Source: an uncultured Paracoccaceae bacterium (lineage in GTDB: Bacteria; Pseudomonadota; Alphaproteobacteria; Rhodobacterales; Rhodobacteraceae). From it: a stretch of 64,000 bases of DNA. Made by a program: the position numbers and the translations under genes. Where the stretch lies: contig CANLNT010000002.1 in the NCBI GenBank assembly GCA_947492825.1, positions 318,501 through 382,500 on the forward strand, written 5' to 3'. Positions 11,313 to 58,661 of this stretch are shown here, in pieces (position 1 is the stretch's first letter; every line of letters starts with the position of its first letter). Below the pieces are notes generated by a model. That model was not told the DNA's origin, made no database searches, and saw nothing but the letters and a program-made list of their open reading frames with translations.

Positions 11313-12100
11313 TCCAGCACCTCAAAGCTGGACATCACAACGCCGCAGCCATGCTTGGGATTGGCGCTCAGGAATCCCGGCTCGCCGGGGTAGATGAATT
11401 CGACTGGGCGTCCGTCACGCTCGAATGAATCCGAGGCCGTCACAATTGTCCCAACACCCGACAGGAACATCCGCCAGTTGCGGCTGATGAACTCATTGCC
11501 TGACGACCGCCAGATCTCGGTGCCGTCCTCGGCATAGGCGGTGATGTTGTATTCCGTCTCGGCCAGGGTCACGTCATCAATCGTGATCTCGCGCCCGGTC
11601 AGCGCGTCCTGCCCGACATAGCGCGTGACGCCAAATTCATCCGACAGGGTTTTGAAGTCATAGGTGTCCTGACCGGTCTGGATCAGCTCATCCAGATTGG
11701 CGCGATCTACGGGGTTGTCTTCCAACCGTTCAGTGTGGCCGGTCAGCGGGTGAAAGGAATTGATCCACTGCGTCTGGTCATCCGTGGTGCCCAGATAGGT
11801 CATGCCTTGTTCATCCAGACTGACACGCTGCTTGTGGCCCTCGGGGTCGCCCGCACATATGAAATTATGGTCAACGCTGCAGTCGGCATTCTGGATTGTA
11901 ACGAAAGCGTCGCAACCCGCAGGCAGGCTGAAAAGGTCCTGCGCTTTCAGGCTGTTGGCCCAGAAAATCGCGGCGACAAAAACCAAAAGGGTCAGCATGC
12001 GTTCCGCAATCTTAACGCGTGTTAGGCTTTGGGGTTGCATGGCATGTGCATCGGATGTGCATGCTTTGTGCATCCGGGTTTGGGGCGTGCGGTGGGTCAT
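11309..12100 (-). CDS. hypothetical exported protein in the glutamate synthase operon
   Basis: Not recognised. A hydrophobic segment (MLTLLVFVAAIFWANSLKAQ) looks like a signal peptide, so the mature protein of about 210 residues should be periplasmic. It has four cysteines (GCDAF, DCSVDHNFIC, HGCGVV) that could form two disulfides and is otherwise acidic and beta-rich. Start is uncertain: the ATG at 12098-12100 overlaps the gltD stop as ATGA, matching the other junctions of this operon, but it puts a 34-residue leader before the signal peptide; ATGs at 12040 and 11998 are alternatives. The 11-bp repeats at 12034-12073 lie in this leader. Confidence 0.6.
   Translation of the reverse strand: MTHRTPQTRMHKACTSDAHAMQPQSLTRVKIAERMLTLLVFVAAIFWANSLKAQDLFSLPAGCDAFVTIQNADCSVDHNFICAGDPEGHKQRVSLDEQGMTYLGTTDDQTQWINSFHPLTGHTERLEDNPVDRANLDELIQTGQDTYDFKTLSDEFGVTRYVGQDALTGREITIDDVTLAETEYNITAYAEDGTEIWRSSGNEFISRNWRMFLSGVGTIVTASDSFERDGRPVEFIYPGEPGFLSANPKHGCGVVMSSFEVLE
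12034..12073 (+). repeat. four TGTGCAT-like heptamers at exact 11-bp spacing
   Basis: Plus strand: GTTGCAT at 12034, then perfect TGTGCAT at 12045, 12056 and 12067, each start exactly 11 bp after the last. The array lies just downstream of gltD and in the 5' part of the next gene. Seven-base direct repeats on one face of the helix are the usual layout of winged-helix (OmpR/PhoB type) response-regulator sites; the regulator is unknown. Related arrays lie at 41625 and 58476. Confidence 0.6.
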
Positions 12101-40949: not shown

Positions 40950-40971
40950 CGAACCCTCCTAAATGGGGTGC

Positions 40972-41802
40972 ATGTCCGCCCCGCCTCCCTTGACCGACCG
41001 CGCCGCCCTTTTGGCACACCGCAAACGCGCCGCCAAAAACCCGGCGTTGTTCCTGCACGAATGGGTGGCAGACGAGGTTAATGAAAGACTACAAGAGGTT
41101 AACAGAACCTTTACCGACATCGCGATTGTCACGCCTTGGCCGCAGGTTTGGATATCGCGGTTTCCAGATGCGCGGATTATTACGGACGATGACGTGCTGA
41201 ACCTTGAACCGGCGCGGTTTGACCTCGTGATCCATGCGCTAACGCTGCATTGGGCCAATGATCTGGTCGGCCAACTGGTCCAGTGCCGCCGCGCGCTACG
41301 CCCCGATGGTTTGTTCATTGGCACCCTCTTTGGCGGTGAAACCCTGACAGAGCTTCGGACCGCTTTGGCCCAGGCAGAGGTGGCCGTAACCGGCGGATTG
41401 TCCCCGCGCATCGCGCCAATGGCAGAGATCCGCGATCTAGGCGGTTTGCTGCAAAGGGCGGGCTTTGCGCTGCCGGTTGCAGATTCTGTGACCGTACCGG
41501 TGGAATACGAATCTCCGCTGCATCTGATGCGTGATCTGCGCGCCATGGGTGAAACGAATGCCCTGTCAGATCGGTTAAGATCCTTCACCCGCCGTGAACT
41601 GGTTAACAAAGTGCAAGACTTCTATGTGCATACAATGTGCATGGATTGTGCACGCTATTTGGCCACCTTCGATGTCGTAAACCTGACCGGCTGGGCCCCT
41701 GCCGAAAGCCAGCCCAAACCGCTGCGCCCCGGAAGTGCGAAGGCGCGGCTCGCCGATGCCTTGGGTGTGCCGGAACACGACCCAAACACATCCAAATCAT
41801 GA
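40972..41802 (+). CDS. SAM-dependent methyltransferase, NDUFAF5/BioC-like
   Basis: Class I methyltransferase of 276 residues similar to the alphaproteobacterial relatives of the complex I assembly factor NDUFAF5: FHEWVADEV-type start (ALFLHEWVADEVNERLQ), FDLVIHALTLHWANDLVGQLV, SPRIAPMAEIRDLGGLLQRAGF, LMRDLRAMGETNAL, and NLTGWAPAESQPKPLRPGSA at the end. Odd: at about residues 219-231 the usual polar segment is replaced by VHTMCMDCARY, encoded by an 11-bp TGTGCAT repeat. No signal peptide. Divergent from comF, 40 to 58 bp before hemH. Confidence 0.85.
   Translation: MSAPPPLTDRAALLAHRKRAAKNPALFLHEWVADEVNERLQEVNRTFTDIAIVTPWPQVWISRFPDARIITDDDVLNLEPARFDLVIHALTLHWANDLVGQLVQCRRALRPDGLFIGTLFGGETLTELRTALAQAEVAVTGGLSPRIAPMAEIRDLGGLLQRAGFALPVADSVTVPVEYESPLHLMRDLRAMGETNALSDRLRSFTRRELVNKVQDFYVHTMCMDCARYLATFDVVNLTGWAPAESQPKPLRPGSAKARLADALGVPEHDPNTSKS
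41625..41653 (+). repeat. three TGTGCAT-like heptamers at exact 11-bp spacing inside a coding region
   Basis: TGTGCAT at 41625 and 41636 and TGTGCAC at 41647, each start 11 bp from the last, within the methyltransferase gene and about 200 bp upstream of hemH. Same heptamer and same period as the arrays at 12034 and 58476. Confidence 0.6.
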
Positions 41803-41860
41803 TGCGTATCGTAAACACTAGGAACCGCGACTTGGGCGGGATATGGAACGGAGCATGACG

Positions 41861-42937
41861 ATGTTCGACGACACCACACAAGAGCGTCCTGCGACGTGTC
41901 CGATGCATGCCCCGGCGGATCATCCGGCGATCAAACCCGCGCGGATCGGCATCCTTTTGGCGAACCTTGGGACGCCTGATGGAACCGACTATTGGTCGAT
42001 GCGTCGCTACCTGAATGAATTTCTGTCAGACAAGCGCGTCGTTGATTATTCCGCCTGGCTTTGGCAGCCGCTGTTGCAGCTTATCATCCTGACAAAACGG
42101 CCTTTTTCCTCGGGCGCTGCTTATAAATCCATCTGGAACGAAGAGGCTGATGAAAGCCCGCTTTTGACCATCACCAAGGCCCAGACCGCCGCTATCAAGG
42201 AACAGATGATCGCGCGATATGGTGATGATGTGCGGGTCGATTTTTGCATGCGCTACGGTAACCCATCGACGAAATCGAAGGTCCGCGAAATGGTCGAAGC
42301 GGGCTGCCAGAAGATCCTGTTCTTCCCGCTCTATCCGCACTACGCTGGGGCGACGTCAGCCACCGCAAACGACCAGTTCTTTCGCGCCTTGATGGAAGAA
42401 AAGTGGCAACCGATTACCCGCACGGTCGAACCTTACTATGCTGATCCGGCTTATATCGACGCGCTCGCCCAATCCATCGAACGGGCCTATCAAGCTGCTG
42501 AAACCAAACCGGAAAAGCTGATCTGCTCTTATCACGGGGTGCCGGAACGCTACCTGCGCGAAGGTGATCCCTATCATTGCCAATGTCAGAAAACGACGCG
42601 GCTCTTGAAGGAACGGTTGGGCTGGGACGACACCCAGATCGTGACCACGTTCCAAAGCCGTTTCGGGCCAGAGGAATGGCTGAAACCCTATACTGTTCAA
42701 GAGGTTGCGCGTCTGGCGGAGGAGGAGGGCGTCAAAAACATCGCCGTCTGCGCCCCGGCCTTTTCTGCCGATTGCATCGAAACGCTGGAAGAGATCAACG
42801 AAGAGATCAAGGAAAGCTTCGAAGAGGCAGGCGGTGAGCAGTTTACCTACATTCCCTGCCTCAACGACGACGCCGCGCATATCGACGCGCTTTGCGGTGT
42901 AATTGACCGCAATTTGGCAGGCTGGATGCCCAGCTAA
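41861..42937 (+). CDS. hemH: ferrochelatase
   Basis: Inserts Fe2+ into protoporphyrin IX, the last haem step. The 358-residue protein shows ILLANLGTPDGTDYWSMRRYLNEFLSD, FPLYPHYAGATSATANDQF, LICSYHGVPERYLREGDPY with the active-site His, TTFQSRFGPEEWLKPYT and VCAPAFSADCIETLEEINEE with the conserved Glu. Three ATGs compete (41843, 41855, 41861); the last has GGAG seven bases upstream. An N-terminal CPMHAPADHP stretch is unusual. Its stop overlaps that of the convergent DeoR gene by four bases. Confidence 0.96.
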   Translation: MFDDTTQERPATCPMHAPADHPAIKPARIGILLANLGTPDGTDYWSMRRYLNEFLSDKRVVDYSAWLWQPLLQLIILTKRPFSSGAAYKSIWNEEADESPLLTITKAQTAAIKEQMIARYGDDVRVDFCMRYGNPSTKSKVREMVEAGCQKILFFPLYPHYAGATSATANDQFFRALMEEKWQPITRTVEPYYADPAYIDALAQSIERAYQAAETKPEKLICSYHGVPERYLREGDPYHCQCQKTTRLLKERLGWDDTQIVTTFQSRFGPEEWLKPYTVQEVARLAEEEGVKNIAVCAPAFSADCIETLEEINEEIKESFEEAGGEQFTYIPCLNDDAAHIDALCGVIDRNLAGWMPS

Positions 42938-57769: not shown

Positions 57770-58474
57770 CTAAGGTCGCAGACGAAGTGCGTGCAATTTG
57801 TCGAAATATGACATCGCTTCGTTAAAGATCTCTTCGTGCTGCGGTTGGACCACTGGCAGCGGACCTTCCGGCCCGGCAAAACCGGTGCTGTTGTGGATCG
57901 CACCGTACCAATGACTGGCCCAGACACCGTCATCAGCGCACCCCCCTTTAGGCCAGGACAGCATTGCGGGATCAAATGGCAGACCAATGGTGTCACATAG
58001 CGCGGAAAGGGCATGTTCGGGATCACTTCGGATGTCAAAGCTGTCAATCACTTGACCACCAAGCTGTTGATAAACCTCCCATTGTTGGCGAAACCCCAGA
58101 TCGTCTGAGGTGATCGAATCTCGCTTTGCGTCATAGCTTGCAATGACCCGCGCGGGGTGGCGGATGAGGTGGAGATTGGTGCAGGTGGTGGCCCAATCGA
58201 GAGGAAAATCATCGACCATATGGTGGGGCATGTGTTTCATGTAAATGTGTGGTTCATCACGCGGCGCGGGCTCAGCACAAAGCGCGGCAACGCGTGCTGG
58301 GTCGGTTTCATGTGCCTCCAATATCTGGTGCCGCATCGGGTGATCGATGCCGGTTGCCGCAAGATATGGGGCGTAGAATGGCTCGTCCCACACCGCAAAA
58401 TCCGGGCGGGCCCCAAAGGCATACATCATGGCCGTCGACAGGTTGCGAGGCCCCGACCACATTGCGATTTTCAT
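57770..58474 (-). CDS. sulfotransferase-like P-loop protein
   Basis: Cytoplasmic protein of 234 residues resembling the branched-chain-aminotransferase-linked sulfotransferase family. The PAPS-type P-loop is MKIAMWSGPRNLSTAMMYAFGA, the second motif LHLIRHPARVIASYDAKRDS (Arg/Ser contacts). No acceptor is known for this family. I chose the ATG at 58472-58474; six residues of extra frame overlap the 11-bp repeat array, which would then lie directly over the ribosome binding region. Confidence 0.8.
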   Translation of the reverse strand: MKIAMWSGPRNLSTAMMYAFGARPDFAVWDEPFYAPYLAATGIDHPMRHQILEAHETDPARVAALCAEPAPRDEPHIYMKHMPHHMVDDFPLDWATTCTNLHLIRHPARVIASYDAKRDSITSDDLGFRQQWEVYQQLGGQVIDSFDIRSDPEHALSALCDTIGLPFDPAMLSWPKGGCADDGVWASHWYGAIHNSTGFAGPEGPLPVVQPQHEEIFNEAMSYFDKLHALRLRP

Positions 58475-58475
58475 G

Positions 58476-58504
58476 ATGCACATTCCATACACAAACCATG
58501 CACA
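58476..58504 (+). repeat. three ATGCACA-like heptamers at exact 11-bp spacing
   Basis: ATGCACA at 58476, ATACACA at 58487, ATGCACA at 58498, each 11 bp apart; an inverted GTGCAT follows at 58509. It covers the region immediately upstream of the sulfotransferase start and lies about 160 bp from msrA. Same heptamer and period as at 12034 and 41625. Confidence 0.6.
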
Positions 58505-58661
58505 TTGCGTGCATCCTCGAACCCTAAGATGCGTTAACCACCCCCCGCAAGGGTAACCAAGAATGAATTATTCCATTCAGTAAACTGCCCGTGACATCAC
58601 GCGCCGGTGAATTGATTGACACCCGCCCTGTCGCCAAGACTGCCGACAAAGGAGAGGTGAT

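Follow-up and report, generated by a model that had tools for sequence, protein, structure and literature searches.

An 11-bp direct repeat within a methyltransferase gene

What is a run of TGTGCAY heptamers, spaced at 11 bp and lying shortly upstream of hemH, doing inside a gene for a methyltransferase? In the window (the whole stretch of DNA analysed, 64,000 nucleotides) the units TGTGCAT, TGTGCAT and TGTGCAC stand on the + strand at 41625, 41636 and 41647 (41625..41653, 11-bp period), as the initial annotation had recorded, and they lie within the ORF of a 279-aa protein (40963..41802, + strand), BioC/Methyltransf_11-like and below the BioC cut-off, which indeed reads VHTMCMDCARY across the array. 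While the three units were correctly described, the limits assigned to the array, 41625..41653, proved too small, as the full element comprises 68 bp (41601..41668, + strand): a 24-bp leading block (ggttaac...caagacttcta, 41601..41624, + strand), which matches the genome consensus gGTTAACgc...TTaaGaCtT from a 56-element alignment, and four 11-bp units, the fourth of which (TTTGGCCACCT) is degenerate and resembles the variant unit TGTTGSCRSGA. Part of the leading-block match (CAAGACTTCTAT) is also explained by the codons Q-D-F-Y, which are shared with a genus mate (L090) that is without an array at this position. The next gene downstream is hemH (ferrochelatase; 41843..42937, + strand, start possibly 41858), and the distance of about 200 bp given initially was accurate, with 189 bp between the end of the last unit and the ORF start at 41843, or 204 bp to the alternative start at 41858.

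The lone TGTGCAY heptamer is not enriched in the window (20 observed, 27.4 expected); heptamer pairs spaced at 11 bp are, with 12 matches at up to 2 mismatches versus 2.9 expected and none of 100 shuffles reaching 12. Three 11-bp arrays are present, at 12034-12073 (+), 41625-41653 (+) and 58476-58515 (-). The first forms part of a four-unit element (12010..12077, + strand) between a gltD-like gene (ORF end 12097) and a gene for a small predicted exported protein, both named by eye, and the last of a four-unit element (58472..58539, - strand) directly before the start of a sulfotransferase gene (Pfam PF19798), with a divergent msrA-like gene (msrA by eye) beyond. Using a matrix trained on elements of the same genome, including those it scores and the hemH-side copy among them, the elements at 12010..12077 and 58472..58539 score 72.6 and 73.9, with elements scoring 51.7 and 53.0 at the orthologous places in the genus mate G216, whilst the hemH-side element scores 50.8 and the best score at its orthologous place in G216 is -25.4.

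The loop carrying the array fits its protein family poorly

The initial annotation had proposed that the array overwrites a polar loop of the same length in related proteins, so that constraint on the DNA has beaten constraint on the protein, and had called for a protein alignment to check this. We therefore aligned the window protein with 80 relatives (best 80 of 167) and scored it against a leave-out profile of the 81 aligned sequences. At residues 222-233 the window protein scores lowest (-0.73) of the 79 rows scorable there, the next being 0.49 and the median 1.82, while the protein as a whole ranks an ordinary 17 of 81 in the same profile and its worst-scoring 12-residue stretches are those over the array. 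Most relatives have a loop resembling Y-x3-F-x3-D-G-R-I-x-A-T-F, where the window protein has YVHTMCMDCARYLATFD, and Met-Cys-Met is absent from this position in all 80 relatives (best 80 of 167). The oddity of the loop is thus borne out, and the location of the array in the loop that fits its family worst of 79 supports the idea of a DNA constraint overriding a protein constraint.

The equality of loop length holds only outside the genus, as the three genus mates read at this locus (L088, L089 and L090; the fourth genus mate is G217) have a shorter methyltransferase loop and no array at hemH, and the gap between the flanking matches is 74 bp in the window versus 53 bp in G216. Conservation of the array at the DNA level beside hemH, another of the proposed checks, was therefore absent in all three, and of the species read the window species alone has the hemH-side copy. 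The hemH regions of other genera, 510 kb in all, held no 11-bp arrays with a score of at least 11 and two with a score of 10; in 460 kb of the window genome, holding nine elements, the same score gave seven matches at 10.

A dispersed family of about 60 elements

The genome containing the window (G000, 4.0 Mb) has 104 pair matches with at most one mismatch, 50 forward and 54 reverse, and none in the reversed-pattern control. These represent about 60 elements, of which 56 distinct arrays were collected and mutually registered (a few places seen later were left out). The 68-bp layout consists of GTTAAC, ten bases on TTAAG, and then four 11-bp units, each made up of a TGTGCAT core and a loose 4-bp linker; unit steps in the 56-element alignment are 10-12 bp, so that the element is phased on the DNA helix. 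In some copies one unit is substituted by the TGTTGSCRSGA-like variant, which is found in 18 of 20 sampled copies (counted by eye) of the genus mate G218. A palindrome-like CACCGTGCGGTGG and A/T tracts recur just 3' of several arrays (for example L009, L018 and window positions 12078-12100), and possibly form part of the element.

A matrix scan of 460 kb of G000 recovered nine elements, all scoring at least 37, with nothing between 10 and 37 and no elements in the Markov-shuffled control (the matrix having been trained on these nine among others). Spacing of the elements on contig C1 is more even than random (CV 0.69, p 0.009), and is borderline on C1 of G175 (CV 0.78, p 0.06, for 100 of 106 pairs listed). 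There was no convincing signal for exclusion from the terminus or for orientation with replication, judged by GC skew from samples and, for G175, with 100 of the 106 pairs. One element (L041, G000:C2:644480-647500) is located between bchM-like and bchL-like genes (named by eye), and the host is on this account probably a bacteriochlorophyll-making member of the Rhodobacteraceae.

Conservation of place and location relative to genes

More than half of the G000 arrays (30/56) share flanking genes, defined as proteins within about 1.6 kb of the array, with an array among 61 sampled from the genus mates G216, G219 and G218. At 30 paired places the position agreement is 0.87 for the cores, 0.43 for the linkers and 0.46 for the flanks. 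As random unit pairs agree almost as well in their cores, the telling point is that the place was kept while the surroundings of the core drifted. When the nine G000 elements from the 460 kb were compared with G216, five had a strong array at the same place, two a weaker one (score 13-14, both still matching the RTRCAS triple) and two had none. Of seven places sampled in G032, which belongs to another genus, two are common to G000, namely a malF-malG-like spacer (L002, L183, L248) and a moaA-like spacer (L021, L246; names by eye). An in-gene array at G216:C2:642384, also present in G219, is absent from G000 at equal length (153/153). Another in-gene array, G000:C2:402933, is strong in its own genome, whereas its counterpart in G216 is weak, the length again being equal (73/73). 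Both cases indicate that sites can arise or vanish by substitution. The loci L198 (G216) and L207 (G219) are 75% identical over 2.9 kb.

Gene calls were made with our own codon-usage caller, and gene names without a family call were given by eye. The 117 arrays of the genus, a count which includes the same places several times as these are repeated in genus mates, are distributed over tandem spacers (62), convergent spacers (27), divergent spacers (10) and the inside of genes (15), with three unplaced. The background spacers of at least 60 bp (860 kb from two genomes) were 224 tandem, 33 convergent and 102 divergent, and the convergent to divergent ratio of 27:10 hence differs from the 33:102 of spacers with p 1e-7 by count; the enrichment is weaker by spacer length (27/37, p 0.0025), and for G000 alone it is 14/19 (p 0.07). 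No common functional theme was seen by eye among the neighbours of the arrays. In tandem spacers 39 arrays are sense and 23 antisense (p 0.056), and the in-gene copies divide into eight and seven; there is consequently no clear strand rule, and an RNA-level element was rejected on this basis.

Arrays upstream of the gene for a lone BrnA-like RHH protein

One array of G000 (L003) is located upstream of a gene for a 118-aa ribbon-helix-helix (RHH) protein (G000:C1:313939-314292, loci L003/L303). Five of these lone RHH proteins (L003, L255, L305, L320 and L324) match Pfam PF14384 (BrnA) with E-values from 7e-16 to 1.5e-10, all above the curated cut-off; the G071 protein (L320) also matches PrgO, a DNA segregation protein, weakly in NCBIfam (E 1e-4, well short of the cut-off). 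With the BrnT of L338 as the single tblastn query, no BrnT was found beside the lone RHH genes in loci L303-L341, and convincing matches were confined to L338 and L340, which are the second RHH genes of G216 and G091. In the genus mate G216 (L338, G216:C8) this is a BrnT-BrnA pair that stands apart from the lone RHH gene. No RHH chain in the PDB set was matched in sequence by the RHH protein of G000 or by a profile built from 34 homologues. A ParA-type P-loop ORF is located near the RHH gene in one of 41 loci (L324, G175:C1:3894083-3897373), and inspection by eye of the longest neighbouring ORFs did not reveal a ParM-type partner as a rule. In eight loci (L303, L309, L318, L326, L327, L333, L334 and L336) a carB-like gene (by eye) lies convergently downstream of the lone RHH gene, which suggests vertical inheritance.

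At least one exact TGTGCAY pair is present in 28 of 198 genomes of the family, with 21 of these having one or two. Among the seven genomes with at least five pairs, six contain the RHH gene (G000, G032, G063, G084, G091 and G130), while G139, a fragmented assembly, has nine TGTGCAC-rich pairs (L067 and others) and no RHH match. Six TGTGCAC pairs were observed in G210 (L171, L175). All four genus mates have the RHH gene, and some RHH match (E 1e-5) is found in 70 of the 198 genomes, mostly without TGTGCAT arrays.

The regions upstream of 34 RHH loci, 29 from other genera and five from genomes of the window genus, were surveyed for arrays of any word. A four-unit 11-bp array with a score of at least 10 is present in 20 of the 34 (20 of the 29 in other genera), and in 25 of the 34 at a score of at least 9, compared to 2 and 12 of 1120 background windows, respectively. 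In the same upstream regions, a period of 10 gave none and a period of 12 gave two. The score of 10 was missed in nine of the 29 loci from other genera, and the genus mates G216 and G218 scored 8 and 7. The array word upstream of the RHH gene often differs between genera, which accounts for a good part of the RHH-bearing genomes without TGTGCAT arrays. For the ten BrnA-like matches outside the family, which came from a search of the whole class, there was no 11-bp array at a score of at least 9, and seven of these ten adjoin a BrnT gene.

The word upstream of the RHH gene often predicts the repeats of the genome

The word upstream of the RHH gene of a genome was read and then searched for in whole genomes; the words of G144, G140, G021 and G095 were left out of these pattern searches. 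Fresh predictions came true in 16 of 22 genomes, and failed or were weak in six (G016 0, G121 2, G047 0, G104 0, G023 1, G106 2). Pairs of GTATGA (GTATGAC) number 55 in the predicted genome G071 versus 0-1 in 33 others. Pairs of GTMTGG number 18-194 in eight of nine predicted genomes (reversed control 1-10), with none in G016, and 0-8 in 22 non-predicted genomes except for the 19 of G063, of which the TGTGTATGG units contain the GTMTGG word. For CGTCTT there are 23 pairs in G077 (control 4), two in the other predicted genome G121, one of which is its own RHH array, and 0-2 in the remaining genomes. Triples of RTRCAS reach at least three in 13 of 18 predicted genomes (10 of the 18 were already known for TGTGCAT arrays, leaving eight fresh), versus 0-1 in 16 others and 0 throughout in the reversed control; the fresh genomes with at least three are G186 (86), G197 (8), G065 (8) and G011 (4), those with 0-2 are G047, G104, G023 and G106, and G218 has a single triple despite 23 exact pairs. 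Finally, GTCGGCA pairs were found four times in G244 and eight times in G470, both predicted, versus 0-1 in 31 others; these two genera came to light later, when 289 genomes of the class were searched with a profile. The initial view that the array is functional is supported by these cross-genus tests and by the sister elements.

The contact positions of the RHH proteins were assumed from the RHH fold via an alignment with Arc, and the motif classes were read by eye from the upstream sequences. Of ten rows with Lys at the presumed first contact position, nine have a TG core, compared to three of 24 rows without Lys (L315, L320 and L330; Fisher p 4e-5), these rows being related to each other. 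On a tree with the beta-strand columns removed, in which most branches are weak, there are three independent pairs on supported branches, with a mean of 2.6 concordant (sign test p 0.25).

In G071, 12 of 20 loci (L417-L436) have a fixed leading block (TAAGYCYCTGAAAAGYGG-like), after which come GTATGAC units in direct and then GTCATAC units in inverted orientation. Although the two genera differ in their unit word, the leading block of G071 is similar to TTAAGACTTTGA of the window genus, a hint of a second contact that is conserved. Despite the different word, convergent spacers again predominate over divergent ones (9:3), with nine of 18 classified G071 arrays being convergent versus one of 16 other spacers of the same loci.

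Proposed role and alternative explanations

The element itself, its repeated conservation of place, its placement away from promoters and the correspondence between the word ahead of a genome's RHH gene and that genome's arrays were computed directly. The simplest account of the arrays would be that they are bound by the lone RHH protein, and we infer this physical binding together with autoregulation, DNA bending and a role in the nucleoid. On the sequence evidence we judge it reasonably likely that the array in the methyltransferase gene is one of about 60 putative sites for a lone, autoregulated RHH protein, which would organise the nucleoid from dispersed, mostly non-promoter sites in the manner of CdbA or SegB, with a specificity that would shift rapidly; the organising or insulating role is proposed because the closest described systems are CdbA and SegB, with ParR-parC as an analogue at the local scale. 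At every 11-bp unit an RHH dimer would place its two-stranded beta-ribbon in the major groove, and several dimers could stack along the same side of the 44-bp array and might bend or wrap the DNA. The array upstream of the RHH gene would allow the protein to regulate its own expression, while the others, mostly intergenic and preferring the 3' ends of genes, may serve to anchor the nucleoid, to bend it or to shield adjacent transcription units from each other, and would not be promoter switches. In the window strain one such site would have come to lie within the gene for the methyltransferase, with a protein loop sacrificed to it. The GTTAAC...TTAAG leading block, which is conserved, counts against this reading, as it is unexplained by the RHH protein alone, and so do the six genomes in which fresh predictions failed or were weak, the nine RHH loci of other genera below a score of 10 and the TGTGCAC-rich pairs of G139.

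Several other explanations share part of this evidence. The RHH protein might be an ordinary global transcription regulator, with the hemH-side copy as an upstream operator setting haem synthesis, and the array upstream of the RHH gene itself, the few elements ending 1-24 bp before a start codon and the orientation of the hemH-side element, which is that of hemH, would all suit such a regulator. We nevertheless regard it as unlikely, since the genus arrays favour convergent over divergent spacers (27 and 10, versus 33 and 102 for spacers in general), 15 of 117 lie inside genes, their neighbours have no common theme by eye, and the hemH copy is missing from all three genus mates read. For the same reasons haem synthesis, initially suggested as the target, is not supported: the sister elements keep away from divergent promoter regions and none of the three genus mates read has the hemH copy, so that a hemH operator as the sole role was rejected; a side effect of the array on hemH is conceivable, though nothing points to one. 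The copy beside hemH is best regarded as a member of the dispersed set that happens to fall in coding sequence. Bound arrays might instead act as protein roadblocks, ending or insulating transcription between neighbouring genes, a view favoured by the preponderance of convergent spacers in two systems with unrelated words and by the short distances to gene ends, but many copies are in tandem spacers or within genes, and we consider this highly improbable.

OmpR/PhoB-type regulators classically use 7-bp direct repeats with 4-bp spacers, as in the case of PhoB, and the same 7+4 geometry raises the question whether a winged-helix response regulator of this type reads the arrays, the RHH gene being merely one of its targets. 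This is improbable given that the RHH-gene array is found in most genera read, and that its sequence changes with the genome-wide set and partly with the RHH contact residues. A CenR/OmpR-type regulon was likewise rejected, as motif and placement differ from the TGA-N8-TGA in promoters that would mark it, the motif being the one given for R. sphaeroides CenR (PMC9275681). A dispersing repeat family of the REP/MITE type, spreading by insertion, would also produce dozens of similar, mostly intergenic copies near 3' ends and sporadic among genera, and at hemH the flank-to-flank length does differ (74 versus 53 bp). This is contradicted by the places of equal length with and without an array (153/153) or with a strong and a weak one (73/73), albeit two places only, by the absence of low-scoring copies in 460 kb of G000, and by places being common within the genus while the linkers are near random; insertion is thus largely refuted as an explanation, and we give it hardly any credence.

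Returning to dispersed sites for the lone RHH protein, these would, if correctly interpreted, form a class of chromosomal sites unreported in the literature searched, with a candidate protein, across a major marine family. We found no report of such a dispersed-site system in the open-access literature among the matches listed, which leaves its absence unproven. A joint change in specificity of a DNA-binding protein and dozens of its sites is a general open question, for which some thirty genera would offer natural variants, with Lys or Arg at one contact position as the candidate specificity switch, and in the methyltransferase loop a DNA site would clearly have taken precedence over protein sequence. 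More tentatively, and as a proposal that we would not quite back at present, this may be a 'self-rewiring' chromosomal system found throughout the family, in which a toxin-less antitoxin was turned into a nucleoid organiser, the recognition residues and dozens of arrays were re-set together time and again, related Rhodobacteraceae genera keeping the gene use private words that differ, and selection for sites is sufficiently strong to overwrite coding sequence.

Comparison with known systems

CdbA of Myxococcus xanthus is an RHH nucleoid-associated protein with hundreds of dispersed sites, its motif being a direct repeat with a 4-bp gap and binding regions one helical turn apart, and no functional category is described as enriched among its sites, with little effect noted on transcription of the genes tested (PMC7156744). 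The system proposed here is like that description in its RHH domain, the direct repeats one helical turn apart, the dispersed sites and the lack of a functional theme by eye, but differs from it in having fewer sites, of about four units, with a word that changes between genera; there was no RHH chain match in the PDB set, and the likeness to CdbA itself is one of description. SegB of the Sulfolobales, an RHH protein linked to chromosome organisation, has 49 sites in total, some ahead of its own operon and others scattered over the chromosome, as well as a ParA-type partner, SegA; its site is a palindrome of 13 bp that is conserved from genus to genus and mostly falls within genes (PMC12284271). 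The combination of an RHH protein, an array upstream of its own gene and scattered chromosomal sites resembles what is reported for SegB, whereas the arrays are direct repeats and mostly intergenic, and a ParA-type P-loop accompanies the RHH gene in one of 41 loci.

In ParR-parC and other plasmid centromeres, a small protein binds DNA repeats arranged in tandem ahead of its own operon, with one dimer per repeat, and a plasmid has one such locus and a motor protein (PMC5016525). Tandem repeats upstream of the gene of a small putative DNA-binding protein are thus shared with these centromeres as described, but the arrays here are chromosomal and number in the dozens, and a motor gene beside the RHH gene was as a rule not seen. 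The BrnA antitoxin of BrnTA, finally, has in common with the five lone RHH proteins scanned the PF14384 domain, while the lone genes, unlike BrnTA, have no adjoining BrnT, and the ten BrnA-like matches outside the family, seven of them next to BrnT, are without an 11-bp array at a score of at least 9.
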